A stretch of DNA of 64,000 nt. Source: Sphingobacterium tabacisoli (GTDB lineage: Bacteria > Bacteroidota > Bacteroidia > Sphingobacteriales > Sphingobacteriaceae). Positions 18,743-25,872 of this stretch are shown piece after piece. The notes below the pieces were generated by a model. The model worked only from the letters and a program-made list of their open reading frames with translations. It did not search any database and was not told the origin of the DNA. Location: positions 124,001 to 188,000 of the forward strand of contig NZ_JAEQMU010000004.1 of the NCBI RefSeq assembly GCF_017908035.1. Direction: 5' to 3'. Position 1 is the stretch's first letter. Every line of letters begins with the position of its first letter. A program made the position numbers and the translations under genes.

Positions 18743-21700
18743 TTAGAAAGTCAAGTTAAGTCCCAATGAAACAGTCTGTGCATAGGGATAAGTCGTACCG
18801 CGTTCCATTTTTACAGTTGAGAACCGGAAAAGATCACTTGATGTCACCATAATTCGCGCACGCTCCATTCGTAAATGTTCTAACGTTCTTTTCGGGAGAT
18901 CATAAGTCAACGTTAAAGTTTGTAATCTTAAGAAATCATTCCGCTGCACCAAACGTGTTGTCTGATAAGGAGCTGATGTGTCATCAATCCGCCTATATAA
19001 TGTAACATCTCCTGGTTGCTTCCAACGCTCGTACAAAACTCTTCTATCCGCATTAAAGCGCGGATCGGAACCTTCTACCTTTTGCGCTAACGTGGAATTA
19101 TAAATTTTTGCACCATATTCATAGGCTAAAATAAAATACAGGTTAAAGTTTTTGTAGATTAGATTAGACTGGAATGTCCCCATCCACTTTGGATTCATAT
19201 CACCTACTATGATTTTATCTTTTGCATCATATTTAAAAGTAAGATCTCCGTTAAGTTTTCTATAAATCTCATTACCAGTCATTGGGTCAATCCCAAGGGA
19301 TTCCACGACCATCAATGCACTTTGTGAACGCCCTGATTCGTAGGCACGTAATGGCTTAGGACCTGTTACATTCTCTTCCTTATTGGCTTCTTCGTTCATC
19401 GCTTCCAAAGCATTAGACAGTTTTACAATCTTGTTTTTATTGGTAGCTGCACCTAAGGTGAAATTCCAAGTGACCGGACTGTTCCCGCGTAAAACATTGA
19501 AACGAAGACGCATGTCCATCCCTTTGTTTTCCATTGCGCCTAAATTCTCGGTATAGCTAGTGAATCCAGTAGATGGAGCAACGTCGATTGGCAATAAAAG
19601 GTTTTGCGTTTGCTTAATATAAGCATCAACATTTAACACCAATAAATTGCGGAACATGGTCCAGTCGGCACCAAGATTAGTCTGTAACGTGTTTTGCCAT
19701 TTCAAGGCAGGATTTCCATAACCTAGTAGTTGCGCGCCGTAGAAGCCATTGTATTCGTAGTCGGCATTATAGCTGTATTTTGTCAACGCTTGATCCGCTG
19801 AAAAATTGACCGATCCTGTACTACCGACTGATCCCCTTATCTTTAATGTACCATCGCTCTTCCACCAGGCCTCACGATCAACATTCCAAGCAGCCCCAAC
19901 CGACCAAAAAGGAGCAAAACGAGATTCTCTTCCAAAACGGCTAGAGCCATCTGTACGGAATGATAAATCCACAAAGTATTTGTTGTCATACCCAACATTG
20001 GCATTTCCAAAAAATCCAATCATCCGTGACTTATCTAAACGACCATTAGGAGTTGAGTTTTCCTTGAATTGTTGTGCATATTGAATAAAATTCAAGTTGT
20101 CAGATAGAAACCCTGTAGCCGTATAGCCTTCTCCAATCTGAGATAAAGTAACTGTATTCGCTCCGACTCCAATGTTGGTAGATATCTTATCTAAAAAGAC
20201 TTGATTATAGGAAGCTGTTACTGTACCGTCAAAATTAATATCATCCTGATCAAAAATAGTATAGCTACCCTTATTTTCACTTTTCAATTCTTTGTCAAAA
20301 ATCGAAGAAAACGGTGAAATGTATTTTTCTTCCTTAGTCAATTTTTTACTTAATGAAGCACGTCCCGTTACCCTAAAATTAGAGCTGACACGCCAATCCA
20401 TATTAAAATTGTCTTGTACCTCTAGGTAACGATTGTAATCTAAATTAGGTAAGGATGCATCCACCAATGGATTCATTGTATTATTGAATTCGTAATGACG
20501 AATCATCTCTCCTGTTGTTCGATCATAGATCCGATCAATAGGATTCATTCGTGCATACGAACTGAAGGACCCATATGGGGAATTAAAACCTTTAACATTA
20601 TTAACCGTCACATCATTACGAATCAAGAAATTGCTTTTCGGATAATAGTTAAAGCTAACGTTAATCCCATAGCGATCCCTTCCTGATCCTTTCATCACTC
20701 CCTTATCTTTATCATAATTAAGTGTAATTCCGTAACGAAAACTACGGTCACCACCCTCTACAAAAGTACTGTAACGCTGATTGACAGAAGTCGTGAGTGG
20801 TTTTGACAACCAATAAGTATCAACACCTCGAACAACCTCTGCAAGACGGTCGCTGTATTGCATATCTAATAGAAACTGCTCCTCTCGTCCAAGACTTTTA
20901 TACAACCCTCCTAATCTTTCATACTCTAATTTTTCCCAAGAATTCATCAAGTTGTAATCTCGAAGATCTGGAACGGATACATTCGAATTGGCATTAAAGG
21001 ATACCCGAACGGCGCCTTCTTTGGGTGGAATAGTCGTTATAATAATAACCCCATTCGCACCACGGGAACCATATAGAGATGTAGCAGACGCATCACGAAG
21101 AATAGCAAAAGACTCGATACGATTCATATCCAAGTCGTAGATACGTGTAGCAGACACTTCAATACCGTCTAATAAATATAAAGGCGAGTTTGGATTACTT
21201 CGCGCATCATCGGCACTAGACCGTAAATCAAAGCCATTCTCCCCACGAATGGTAATATCGGGAACCCGATTTGGATCGGAACCAAACTCTAAATTAGGTG
21301 CTACACGAATTGATGGATCGAAAGCATTTAACGCCTGCATCAAGTTTAGTGACCCTACTTTTTTCAGATCTTCACCCGACACCACAATCTGTGATCCTGT
21401 AGCACTTTCCTTTGTACGATTGAAGTAACCCGTCGAGACAGTCACTTCTTCAATGCTACTAGAAGACTTTAACACAACAGTCATCTCCTTCTTGGCTTTG
21501 ACTATCTGTTTTTCATAGCCCACAAACGAAACAATTAGATTTACCCCTTCTTTGGGTACCTTCAGTTCGAATTCGCCATTATTACCACAGGTACATCCTA
21601 GCTTCTGTCCCTCTACTTGTACTGTGGCACCAATTAGAGGTTTTCCATTCTCATCCGTAATTTTTCCTTTAATAATAACCCCATCCTGAACTTCTACATT

Positions 21701-22135
21701 ACGTACAACAGAATGATCTTTTTCTTTAGGCAACAGTACAATGGTTTTTTCTTCTATCCTATAAGTCAATCCCTTGGTAGCTAAAATATCTTCTATAGCT
21801 TTCGACAAAGGGGCATTACTTAAATCTACAGAAATGCTACTTTCTAGGTCTAACATTCTAGAATTGTAGAGAAACCCGTATCCTGTTTGTTTGGTTACTG
21901 TGCGTAGAGCATCTTTTATTTTTACACGCTGTCCTTTTAGTGTGACTTGCTGCGAATACACAGAGGCACTGAGATGTAACAGCGGAACAAGCGTTAAAAC
22001 TCCAGTTAATTTCATAATTCTCCAGATTTTTTGTGTCCTCGATCGATAACTGTCCGATTGGTCAATCGGAGAGGACAAATTAATACGGCATAGCCACCTT
22101 GCAAAAGGTGCTTTTTTATCCGAGTAGATTTGCAT
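18743..22135 (-). CDS. SusC/RagA-family TonB-linked receptor with STN domain, locus 2
   Basis: A 1130-residue receptor with STN domain at about residues 64-137, carboxypeptidase-regulatory-like domain at about 152-230, plug at about 235-370 (including GANGVIIITT) and a barrel ending in LGLNLTF. The first 40 residues precede the hydrophobic signal (Met41 onward, LTGVLTLVPLLHLSAS), so Met41 is an alternative start. The regulatory-like domain carries Cys181 and Cys183 as a C-T-C pair where most relatives have GT-TD. Through STN it should signal to the FecR encoded 168 bp upstream. A stable hairpin (22197-22218) lies in that leader. Confidence 0.9.
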   Translation of the reverse strand: MQIYSDKKAPFARWLCRINLSSPIDQSDSYRSRTQKIWRIMKLTGVLTLVPLLHLSASVYSQQVTLKGQRVKIKDALRTVTKQTGYGFLYNSRMLDLESSISVDLSNAPLSKAIEDILATKGLTYRIEEKTIVLLPKEKDHSVVRNVEVQDGVIIKGKITDENGKPLIGATVQVEGQKLGCTCGNNGEFELKVPKEGVNLIVSFVGYEKQIVKAKKEMTVVLKSSSSIEEVTVSTGYFNRTKESATGSQIVVSGEDLKKVGSLNLMQALNAFDPSIRVAPNLEFGSDPNRVPDITIRGENGFDLRSSADDARSNPNSPLYLLDGIEVSATRIYDLDMNRIESFAILRDASATSLYGSRGANGVIIITTIPPKEGAVRVSFNANSNVSVPDLRDYNLMNSWEKLEYERLGGLYKSLGREEQFLLDMQYSDRLAEVVRGVDTYWLSKPLTTSVNQRYSTFVEGGDRSFRYGITLNYDKDKGVMKGSGRDRYGINVSFNYYPKSNFLIRNDVTVNNVKGFNSPYGSFSSYARMNPIDRIYDRTTGEMIRHYEFNNTMNPLVDASLPNLDYNRYLEVQDNFNMDWRVSSNFRVTGRASLSKKLTKEEKYISPFSSIFDKELKSENKGSYTIFDQDDINFDGTVTASYNQVFLDKISTNIGVGANTVTLSQIGEGYTATGFLSDNLNFIQYAQQFKENSTPNGRLDKSRMIGFFGNANVGYDNKYFVDLSFRTDGSSRFGRESRFAPFWSVGAAWNVDREAWWKSDGTLKIRGSVGSTGSVNFSADQALTKYSYNADYEYNGFYGAQLLGYGNPALKWQNTLQTNLGADWTMFRNLLVLNVDAYIKQTQNLLLPIDVAPSTGFTSYTENLGAMENKGMDMRLRFNVLRGNSPVTWNFTLGAATNKNKIVKLSNALEAMNEEANKEENVTGPKPLRAYESGRSQSALMVVESLGIDPMTGNEIYRKLNGDLTFKYDAKDKIIVGDMNPKWMGTFQSNLIYKNFNLYFILAYEYGAKIYNSTLAQKVEGSDPRFNADRRVLYERWKQPGDVTLYRRIDDTSAPYQTTRLVQRNDFLRLQTLTLTYDLPKRTLEHLRMERARIMVTSSDLFRFSTVKMERGTTYPYAQTVSLGLNLTF

Positions 22136-22196
22136 ACTTTTGGTTAAGAGTTAGTTAATAAACAGTATAAAATGGGTAGAGACGACCTCTAATATC

Positions 22197-22218
22197 AGTC
22201 CCGATGGCCGTCGGGACT
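22197..22218 (+). other. Terminator-like hairpin between fecR and susC of locus 2, T run on the + strand
   Basis: AGTCCCGA and TCGGGACT form a perfect 8-bp stem around TGGCCG. On the + strand it is followed by six T, then ATATTTTTT, like an intrinsic terminator, although both flanking genes are on the minus strand. On the minus strand the A run comes first, so it would act as a plain stem-loop in the susC leader. Confidence 0.5.
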
Positions 22219-22303
22219 TTTTTATATTTTTTCGTCGTGTAAATTGTTATATCACATAGGCATCTTCTTCATTTTTTAGGTTTTTAATATAAGTTGTTAG
22301 TTT

Positions 22304-23479
22304 TTATTTTTTAAAACGGGATACAAGCACTCTTCTTTCCTTAATATCAAAAGTCAGTTGCTGTGAGGCGCTCAATATCCGCAGAACCTGATCGATATTT
22401 TCTTTTTTAGGTACCATTCCCCCAAATACACAATCACTATAATCTCCCTTTTCGAAAGCAACATCAACATCATACCACCTCGAAAGCGTCTGCATAATCT
22501 CCCTAATATTGCTATTATCAAAACTAAACATCCCTTCTTTCCAAGCTAATAAACTTCCTAAATCCGGAATATTATCGACACCTAAACCTCCTTGTTTCTC
22601 ATTCCATAGGCACATCTGCCCTGGACGTAACTCGACCTGGCGCCCACCGGCAGAAACCGCCACACGTCCCTCGATAAGACTCGTTTTTACAATATGTTGA
22701 TCGGGATAAGCATTGATATTAAAATGGGTTCCCAGCACTGTAATAGTCTGCTGTCTCGCCTGCACGATGAAAGGTTGCCCTTGCTTTTTAGCAACTTCAA
22801 AATAAACTTCACCAGTGATCTCGACACTACGTGTACCTTTATCGAATTGAGTAGGAAAGGTAATAGATGATTCTGCATTAAGCCATACTTTGGTTCCATC
22901 TGCCAATACTACGGCAAACTGCCCGCCTCGAGGCGTACTCAATGTGCGTTTTCCAATATCCTTTTGCGAAGCTGGCAGATCTTCGGTATTGAAAGTCATC
23001 ATACCTCCACTGTCTTTAGTCAAAAAAAGGTCTCTAGCATCATCATCAACTAAACTGTCTAAATCTAAAACACGACCATCTTCGAGATGAAGAATCGCCC
23101 GATCATCACCTGGTAATATAGTAGAATACATAGAATCGCTCGAAACAGACTCTGAATCCCCATAATGCAGTCCCAACCAACCACCAACGCAGAGCAATAC
23201 CGCAGCGGCTGTACCGATACTCCAATAAATACGTTTTACTTTTCGTCGGGCACCACGAATACGATCATGTAATGCCACTGAAACACGAGATAGAATAACT
23301 TGTTCACTAGCAATAGGAGCATCTTCTTCCCCCTCGAACTCGGCTAAAATCAAGTTACGTAAATACGTGGAGTCATTTTCTTCTTGAAAATGATCCAACA
23401 GTTGGAGGAGTTCGCTAGACGATGCTCGTCCCGCAAGATATTTGGAAAATAATTCTTTTAGATTCGTTTCTTGTTTCAA
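22304..23479 (-). CDS. FecR-family anti-sigma factor, locus 2
   Basis: A 391-residue single-pass membrane protein: cytoplasmic helical part (1-82), membrane segment (about 84-105), FecR domain (about 175-275, TPRGGQFAV, DGTKVWLNA, GEVYFEV, LIEGRV) and C-terminal DUF4974 domain (about 312-388). It begins with TTG; no in-frame Met occurs in the N-terminal domain, so the unusual start is likely real. Its sigma partner is not adjacent: an Na+/H+ antiporter gene lies between them. Like the other FecR proteins it should bind the STN domain of the receptor encoded next. Confidence 0.88.
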   Translation of the reverse strand: MKQETNLKELFSKYLAGRASSSELLQLLDHFQEENDSTYLRNLILAEFEGEEDAPIASEQVILSRVSVALHDRIRGARRKVKRIYWSIGTAAAVLLCVGGWLGLHYGDSESVSSDSMYSTILPGDDRAILHLEDGRVLDLDSLVDDDARDLFLTKDSGGMMTFNTEDLPASQKDIGKRTLSTPRGGQFAVVLADGTKVWLNAESSITFPTQFDKGTRSVEITGEVYFEVAKKQGQPFIVQARQQTITVLGTHFNINAYPDQHIVKTSLIEGRVAVSAGGRQVELRPGQMCLWNEKQGGLGVDNIPDLGSLLAWKEGMFSFDNSNIREIMQTLSRWYDVDVAFEKGDYSDCVFGGMVPKKENIDQVLRILSASQQLTFDIKERRVLVSRFKK

Positions 23480-23559
23480 ACTGATTAGGTTCTTTATAAG
23501 CTAATACGGGGATGTATTAAAAAGTACCTACTCTAAATTTACTTTTTTTTAATAAAATA

Positions 23560-25185
23560 TTATTCAACTATATCCGATGCTATGCTAGCTGCCCCAAATC
23601 GTTTCATTTCCTGCAGAATAGTTGCTGTCCAAAAATCTAATTCTAACTCTTTTTTCCGGATTATCTCCAATGAAAAACGCCCTTTCTGATAACTATCTGC
23701 GAGTTCGCGCCGCTGATAATCGACCAGACTTAACTCAAGCTGTAGATAAGCTCCTTTTTGGGCAATCTGCTCGGCTAACATAACCGGCTCTACACGGCCG
23801 TCAATCAGCTCAGACTCTTCCGCCTCCAACTTGGAAACCATAGTTTTAATAGCACTTTCGGTAAGATGTCCCCGTATAGGGATATTGGCCAAATAAGAGA
23901 TCGATCGGTCCAGCAACAGCAGGTTCAGAATATGCTCATCTTCTATCTTTTTGTCCACGGGTTTAATCAACTTAATCAATCGGGACAGCGTAAGTCCCTG
24001 TATCAACAAAGTGAAAATAATAACCACGAAAGAAACAAAAAGCACCGTACTCCGCTGCTCGATCAACAGCCCCCGCCCATCAGTAAATGGCAATGCTAAT
24101 GCGGCTGCCAATGAAACAACCCCACGCATCCCTGACCAGGATAGAATAAGATATTCCTTCCCCGATTCTGCATATATCCCCATAGTATGGGCAGACCTGC
24201 TAAATGAAAAAGCAGGAATAGCAAAAAGCACCAATAACCGGACGGCTACGAGAATCAAAAATATCAGAAACCCATAGCATACTAAAGGGAAAATTTCAGG
24301 CGAAGGTATATCAGCGAGTATGCTTGGCAACTGCATACCTAAAATAAGGAAAATCAGACCGTTCAAAATAAATATAATGACATCCCAAATATGCCCCATC
24401 TGAATTCGGCTAGCAGCAGTAAAGATGGCAAAAGAATGCCAAGAAAGATACATCCCCAAAATGACAACAGCTAGCACGCCAGAAAAACCAAGATGCTCGG
24501 AAAGACTATAAGTCGCAAAAGGCAATAAGACAACGGCAAATGTTTCAACATTGCTATCATTACGAAGGAAAGCATATATTTTGAGAAAGAGAAACCCGAC
24601 AGCAATACCAACAAAAACACCTCCCAAACTGATGTACAGAAACTGCCATCCGGCATCCCATAATGAAAAAGCTCCTGTCATAACCGCTACAACAGCACAT
24701 TTATAAGCAATTAATGCAGAAGCATCATTCAGTAAGCTCTCCCCCTCTAATAGGACAATCAATCGCTTGGGCAGAACTATACTTTTGGTAATACTACTAG
24801 CTGCCACCGCATCGGGCGGAGATACAATAGCCCCAAGTACAAACGCCAAGCCCCAGCCAAACCCAGGTAACACATGATGGACAAAAATAGCAACGATAGT
24901 GGTGGTAAGAAATACGAGGATAACAGCGAGAATGGATATTTTCGAGAACTCCTTCTTAAAATCGGGAATAGAAGTATTCCAGGCCGCATCAAATAAAACA
25001 GGCGGTAGCACCACATAAAAAATCATCTCCGGACTGATATCTATAGTAGGTAATAAACCTGTCAGACTCAACAACAGACCTACAAGTACCAACAAGATAG
25101 GAAGTGCTAGTTTTACTCGCTCCTTGACGGAAATAATAACAATTAAAATAATAGATATCCAGATAATTTTCTCTAACTCTTGCAT
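23560..25185 (-). CDS. CPA1-family Na+/H+ antiporter
   Basis: A cation:proton antiporter of 541 residues with about twelve membrane segments and a cytoplasmic C-terminal region of about 120 residues. Family motifs are intact: SPPDAVAA in the ion-binding helix, LLEGESLLNDASALI, and SWSGMRGVVSLAAALALP. It exchanges Na+ (or K+/Li+) for H+ at the inner membrane. The ATG at 25185 is preferred over the upstream in-frame TTG at 25206, because a TACTTTTG box overlaps that TTG and GAGGAG precedes the ATG. It sits between the sigma and anti-sigma genes of locus 2, on the same strand, with its own promoter-like sequence; it may be cotranscribed with them or independently expressed. Confidence 0.88.
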   Translation of the reverse strand: MQELEKIIWISIILIVIISVKERVKLALPILLVLVGLLLSLTGLLPTIDISPEMIFYVVLPPVLFDAAWNTSIPDFKKEFSKISILAVILVFLTTTIVAIFVHHVLPGFGWGLAFVLGAIVSPPDAVAASSITKSIVLPKRLIVLLEGESLLNDASALIAYKCAVVAVMTGAFSLWDAGWQFLYISLGGVFVGIAVGFLFLKIYAFLRNDSNVETFAVVLLPFATYSLSEHLGFSGVLAVVILGMYLSWHSFAIFTAASRIQMGHIWDVIIFILNGLIFLILGMQLPSILADIPSPEIFPLVCYGFLIFLILVAVRLLVLFAIPAFSFSRSAHTMGIYAESGKEYLILSWSGMRGVVSLAAALALPFTDGRGLLIEQRSTVLFVSFVVIIFTLLIQGLTLSRLIKLIKPVDKKIEDEHILNLLLLDRSISYLANIPIRGHLTESAIKTMVSKLEAEESELIDGRVEPVMLAEQIAQKGAYLQLELSLVDYQRRELADSYQKGRFSLEIIRKKELELDFWTATILQEMKRFGAASIASDIVE

Positions 25186-25203
25186 GTCTCCTCTATTAGA
25201 CCG

Positions 25204-25211
25204 CAAAAGTA
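25204..25211 (-). promoter_or_regulatory. -7 box (TACTTTTG) of the antiporter gene
   Basis: The minus strand reads TACTTTTG, matching TAnnTTTG, 19 bp before the ATG at 25185. It implies a start near 25198 and a leader of about 13 nt. The position argues that the antiporter has its own promoter and that the upstream TTG at 25206 is not the start. Confidence 0.45.
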
Positions 25212-25233
25212 ATTAGCCAAAACTCACCGACTA

Positions 25234-25247
25234 TTGACCTAAGTCAA
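25234..25247. promoter_or_regulatory. Operator-like dyad between sigma and antiporter genes
   Basis: TTGAC-CTAA-GTCAA is a perfect 5-4-5 inverted repeat lying 22 bp after the sigma stop and about 23 bp upstream of the antiporter -7 box, close to where -33 contacts would fall. This is the right place for a transcription factor controlling the antiporter. No cognate protein can be named. Confidence 0.35.
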
Positions 25248-25269
25248 AAAGGAAATGTCTAACCCATCT

Positions 25270-25872
25270 TTATTTTAAAAGATCGAACATGGCAAACGTT
25301 ATCAAAAAAAATAGAAAAGGGAACTCTTTCTTAAGAATACTGTTCGCCTTAGTAAGATGGTTATTGATAGTGGATTTGCTAATCCCTAGCAACTGAGTTA
25401 TCTCCGCATAGCTCTTACCTTCTAATTTAAAAAGGATGTATACTTGCCTACATTGGGGGGGGAGCTTATCGATAGCCCCCATTAGTCGCTCTTCTGTCTG
25501 CTTAAAAATAATATCCTCTTCAATATGTCCATATAGTTCGGAGTAATTGCGTACAAATTCTGCACGGTACCGCTCATCAACACTTTGCTTCCGGAAATAA
25601 TCGTAGACTAGATTTTGAGCTATTTTGAACAGGTAGCCCTTAAAAGATTGATTGACATCGATCTGCTCCCGCTTCTCCCAGACCCGGAAAAAGAGATCCT
25701 GCAAGAGCTCTTCGGCAGTGTCAGCCTGTCCAAGGAGACGTATCAACCGGCCCAATATCCGGGGACTATATTCTGTGTAGAGTGTGTCAAATGCGGCATA
25801 ATTTCCTCTCTTCAAAAGCAATAACTGCTCTTGCTCCTCCATATCACTACTAAAACTATTCCTCCTGAACAT
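25270..25872 (-). CDS. ECF RNA polymerase sigma factor (FecI-like), locus 2
   Basis: A 200-residue ECF sigma factor: region 2 at about residues 25-95 (EELLQDLFFRVWEKR, GYLFKIAQNL) and region 4 at about 130-178 (LPPQCRQVYILFKLEG, ISKSTINNHL helix-turn-helix). The C-terminus FPFLFFLITFAMFDLLK is a strongly hydrophobic tail. It is the first gene of locus 2, preceded by a good Bacteroidota promoter (25930-25960). Its anti-sigma partner is presumed to be the FecR at 22304-23479, two genes downstream. Met11 is a possible alternative start. Confidence 0.87.
   Translation of the reverse strand: MFRRNSFSSDMEEQEQLLLLKRGNYAAFDTLYTEYSPRILGRLIRLLGQADTAEELLQDLFFRVWEKREQIDVNQSFKGYLFKIAQNLVYDYFRKQSVDERYRAEFVRNYSELYGHIEEDIIFKQTEERLMGAIDKLPPQCRQVYILFKLEGKSYAEITQLLGISKSTINNHLTKANSILKKEFPFLFFLITFAMFDLLK

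Follow-up and report, generated by a model that had tools for sequence, protein, structure and literature searches.

An ECF sigma factor gene, a CPA1 Na+/H+ antiporter gene and a fecR-type anti-sigma gene follow one another on the minus strand of the window, the whole 64-kb stretch of DNA analysed here, with SusC and SusD genes next in order. The features of the locus are, in minus-strand order:

25270..25872, minus strand: ECF sigma factor gene of the TIGR02985 family, identified by profile match, with orthologues in 8 genomes
25234..25247, minus strand: FNR-type dyad TTGACTTAGGTCAA, the predicted antiporter operator; the identical 14-mer is also found at an MFS-Crp operon
25204..25211, minus strand: sigma-A type -7 box TACTTTTG (TAnnTTTG), 22 bp from the dyad
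23560..25185, minus strand: gene for a CPA1 Na+/H+ antiporter of 541 aa, counted from the ATG (TIGR00831 over the cut-off, PF00999, solved NHE/SOS1 relatives)
23480..23551, minus strand: conserved module upstream of fecR (TAGGTACTTT...AAAGRACCTAATCA), alike in loci that have the antiporter and loci that lack it
22304..23479, minus strand: fecR-type anti-sigma gene with a TTG start (FecR and FecR_C domains)
18743..22135, minus strand: SusC-type TonB-dependent receptor gene with an STN domain (domain match), a neighbour of fecR that is conserved in relatives

The coordinates and profile matches agree with the initial annotation, which had placed the antiporter between the sigma and fecR genes on the same strand with gaps of about 80 bp: 84 bp lie between the sigma stop codon and the antiporter ATG, and 80 bp between the antiporter stop codon and the fecR start. 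In the profile search, the sigma gene scored 141 bits against TIGR02985, above the cut-off. The antiporter belongs to the CPA1 family TIGR00831 (a_cpa1), which it matches full-length over the curated cut-off (304.6 bits against 279.6, residues 16-531 of 548). The solved NHE7, SOS1 and NHE1 structures are among its relatives, and its transport activity is presumably Na+/H+ exchange. It is the sole match of its kind in the window genome (G000; E <= 0.001), and its subfamily (at least 55% identity) differs from CPA1 antiporters generally in being present in only five of the Sphingobacterium genomes searched. The ATG at 25185 is the likely start, favoured over an upstream TTG at 25206 because the MQELEKI start is common to the copies in genomes G078 and G091.

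As in the FecI/FecR/SusC signalling loci of Bacteroidetes, an ECF sigma factor, a FecR protein with a FecR_C domain, an STN-bearing SusC and a SusD occur here in the usual order, and the SusC-type receptor (18743..22135) is presumed to be the partner of the sigma/FecR pair. Unlike in those cell-surface signalling loci, sigma and fecR are here separated by the gene for an unrelated transporter, which has a control site of another kind. No published description of an antiporter splitting a sigma/fecR pair was found in the open-access literature.

Split pairs are rare, though not unique, in the window genome, as judged from the 97 best sigma matches. Pairing each of these with a FecR domain located downstream of the sigma domain, on the same strand and within 4 kb, gave 85 pairs, and the domain-to-domain gap was 316-866 bp in 82 of them (median of all 85, 670 bp). 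The exceptional gaps measured 1096, 1690 and 2379 bp, the last, that of the antiporter locus, being the largest among the 85. The pair with the 1690-bp gap is a second split pair (L086:1202-4090, G000:C13), with a DUF4369/thioredoxin gene between sigma and fecR. Altogether, the 5.5-Mb genome contains 117 TIGR02985 sigma matches (56 over the cut-off) and 89 FecR domains.

Close orthologues of the window sigma/fecR pair were detected in 8 of the 94 genus genomes. The antiporter lies between the two genes in three of these eight loci, those of the window genome, MAG G078 (antiporter 93% identical to the window copy) and S. yanglingense G091 (88%). It is missing from the orthologous sigma-fecR-SusC loci of the other five (G034, G077, G048, G047 and G007) and is, thus, not conserved with the locus as a whole. 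In G034, the site is empty amid identical neighbours (SNF2, CopA, FMN dehydrogenase, sigma, fecR, SusC and SusD), and in the sigma and FecR trees, the three antiporter-bearing loci form one clade adjoining G034 (support 95/94 and 93/88). The five empty orthologous sites and the single carrier clade identify the antiporter as a lineage-specific insertion between sigma and fecR. Because carriers and non-carriers have a similar block just upstream of fecR, the insert can be placed between the sigma stop codon and this block.

The initial annotation had considered a recent insertion; the insertion stands, but its recency does not, since it is older than the divergence of the three species, among which dS reaches about 0.95. 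Among these species, the antiporter shows dN of 0.04-0.07, dS of 0.42-0.95 and dN/dS of about 0.07-0.09, and the gene is under purifying selection. Its GC content (0.42) and GC3 (0.40) fall inside the range of its neighbours, which rules out a foreign composition and, together with the low dN/dS, indicates an old, maintained insertion. The annotated absence of flanking direct repeats and transposase remnants held up: a search for border direct repeats around the antiporter was empty, no transposase or other mobile-element genes were present among the genes of the locus, and the transposase, terminal repeats and target duplication of a mobile-element cassette are lacking. A plasmid origin was rejected, the best plasmid relatives being merely 39% identical, and the wider family and class searches returned no antiporters closer than about 40% outside the genus.

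Members of the antiporter subfamily occupy two further positions, in genomes G079 (65% identity) and G037 (58%), at L038:6306-7916 and L039:6255-7844, respectively. These genes stand away from any such sigma/fecR pair and directly adjoin a cluster encoding an MFS transporter, RibB, a siderophore-interacting-type flavoprotein and a Crp-family regulator, so that the antiporter and the Crp cluster share a neighbourhood in two other genomes. Near relatives of these two genomes, G007 and G051, lack it. The G079 and G037 positions suggest repeated movement or loss of the antiporter unit.

The -7 box and the operator-like dyad that had been ascribed to the antiporter are both present as described: upstream of the gene, TTGACTTAGGTCAA is followed, after 22 bp, by TACTTTTG. 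The window genome (5.47 Mb) has two copies of this 14-mer, one ahead of the antiporter and one ahead of the MFS-Crp operon on C9, which means that the antiporter carries the identical dyad of a Crp-family regulator's own operon. Both the motif and its spacing are common to the antiporter and Crp operons, and the combination of dyad, exactly 22 bp and a TAnnTTTG-like box precedes the antiporter in five genomes and the Crp operon in 16. Upstream of the antiporter, the dyad is conserved in G078, G091 and G037 and weaker in G079, where it is imperfect (TTGATGTAGGTCAT, 3.8 bits). At Crp-cluster sites, TAnnTTTG matches average 5.2 of 6 when the spacing is 22, and the average reaches at most 2.45 for the other spacings from 14 to 31. 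The regulon in the window genome was scanned by sequence pattern, and a 6/6 box at spacing 22 was found in 2 of the 10 TTGAC-N4-GTCAA sites, namely those of the antiporter and the Crp operon. When the pattern was tightened to end in TNNTTTTG, the antiporter site was the sole match in this genome, and the reversed control pattern had 0 occurrences in the 94 genomes. Using a promoter matrix built from Crp-operon promoters only, with the antiporter site excluded, the antiporter site ranked first in the 64-kb window with 27.3 bits (runner-up, 9.7), and after removal of own-clade sites from the matrix, it scored 24.1 against 8.0 bits.

In Flavobacterium, the sigma-A box TAnnTTTG sits at -12 to -5 (PMC9723704), and in class II FNR promoters, the site lies at -41.5, as in FF-41.5 with the FNR box TTGATNNNNATCAA (PMC4505428). 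Applying this box position, a Flavobacterium rather than a Sphingobacterium value, the dyad centre would therefore fall at -41.5, the class II FNR geometry. The 22-bp spacing to a TAnnTTTG-like box in all promoters compared fits such a centre, the start site being predicted. Like FNR-type class II promoters, the antiporter promoter has TTGA half-sites, a 4-bp centre and a predicted position of -41.5, whereas its dyad has TTGAC in place of TTGAT and its box is the Bacteroidetes sigma-A TAnnTTTG.

The Crp-family regulator gene of the window genome lies in the MFS-Crp operon (G000:C9, L059:8267-8860), and its orthologues in 16 genomes have the dyad upstream at the same 22-bp spacing. The solved relatives of the regulator are Crp-family proteins, including DNR. 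The invariant SQETLSR recognition helix with which it ends is equivalent to the E-T-x-S-R helix of FNR, whose Glu209, Ser212 and Arg213 read TTGAT-N4-ATCAA (PMC4505428), and it is a putative DNA-binding protein on these grounds. Unlike FNR, it keeps one invariant cysteine only (C63), and an FNR-type iron-sulphur cluster is, therefore, not expected. Its AlphaFold model was poor (pLDDT 57) and was set aside. The window genome encodes about 20 Crp-like paralogues, and another of them could read the antiporter dyad.

Considering these data, the antiporter is probably a unit of a Crp/Fnr-type regulon that was inserted, with its own promoter, between sigma and fecR, and the FNR-like regulator on C9, rather than the neighbouring ECF sigma, is its most likely controller. 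The inserted piece would consist of the Crp/Fnr operator, the sigma-A promoter and the antiporter gene, and this complete unit would have entered the locus in the common ancestor of the window organism, G078 and S. yanglingense. From sequence, we infer binding by the C9 regulator, activation rather than repression, and an inducing signal: TTGAC-N4-GTCAA, with its centre at -41.5, would be occupied by a dimer of the regulator, which would serve as a class II activator of the antiporter. The neighbouring ECF sigma is unnecessary to explain antiporter expression, and the antiporter appears to be a lodger with its own regulation, not a part of the uptake system. The locus offers a natural, replicated example of a transcription unit that invaded a two-gene sigma/anti-sigma module together with its own operator, for which the empty-site sister species (G034) serves as a control. 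It also outlines in Sphingobacterium a compact candidate Crp/Fnr-type regulon whose precise predicted promoter geometry is directly testable.

No terminators were detected in the sigma-antiporter and antiporter-fecR gaps. Read-through from sigma into the antiporter is possible, as is read-through from the antiporter onto fecR, given that no terminator was found between them. It is conceivable, if doubtful, and compatible with an inserted regulon unit, that transcription from the Crp-driven antiporter promoter extends into fecR, so that the Crp signal raises the anti-sigma level and damps the uptake system. The insert has split the sigma-fecR unit, and fecR follows on the same strand after 80 bp, but the fecR upstream module is retained in 8 of 8 genomes and may give fecR independent expression. 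Somewhat less probable still is that a Crp signal sets the anti-sigma dose via this read-through and, in just three species, gates a SusCD uptake system; the Crp operon in relatives holds flavin and siderophore-type reductase genes. Such Crp-driven read-through, if true, would mean that a transplanted antiporter unit rewires the sigma/anti-sigma pair.

A functional role for the antiporter within the uptake system, in which it would share a transcript with sigma and fecR or be switched on by the sigma factor and would link ion gradients to TonB-dependent import, is unlikely. The shared strand, the short gaps with no detected terminator and the maintenance of the arrangement in three species are consistent with such a role, but the antiporter is absent from the five other orthologous loci, it stayed in G091 while the receptor was replaced (43% identity), and in G079 and G037, it lies apart from any such pair. 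The co-regulation with the uptake system that the initial annotation had envisaged is also not supported by the promoter, a sigma-A type box with a Crp/Fnr dyad that is shared with the unrelated Crp operon and not with the sigma/fecR locus. Upstream of SusC, the analysis gave no confident ECF promoter motif with which the antiporter promoter could be compared. Least probable of all is that the arrangement is ancestral and disappeared from the other species, since, even though presence and absence alone do not fix the direction and close antiporter relatives occur in just five genomes of the genus, at least two losses would be needed, each sparing the conserved module upstream of fecR, and the carriers form one clade beside the empty G034.

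In eight species, the fecR upstream block (23480-23551) keeps two arms, TAGGTACTTT and AAAGRACCTA, invariant and ends just before the TTG start; it may act as an operator in DNA or fold as a hairpin in RNA. A covariation check gave invariant arms and only one pair with a two-sided change, which does not establish a hairpin; an Rfam search returned no matches. Masking of a Shine-Dalgarno sequence by the dyad was dropped because Bacteroidetes mRNAs are devoid of such sequences (PMC6847099). The SusC leader (22136-22230, minus strand) is conserved in seven species, with a stem GTCCCGACGGCCATCGGGAC, a palindrome around TAGAGSTMGYCTCTA and a near-invariant stretch of 30 nt before the ATG. At the G091 locus, SusC (L031:1963-5460) is 91% identical to the window receptor (18743-22135) in its first 100 residues, with 26-57% identity beyond them; the receptor appears to have been exchanged, with the STN signalling end and the upstream leader kept.
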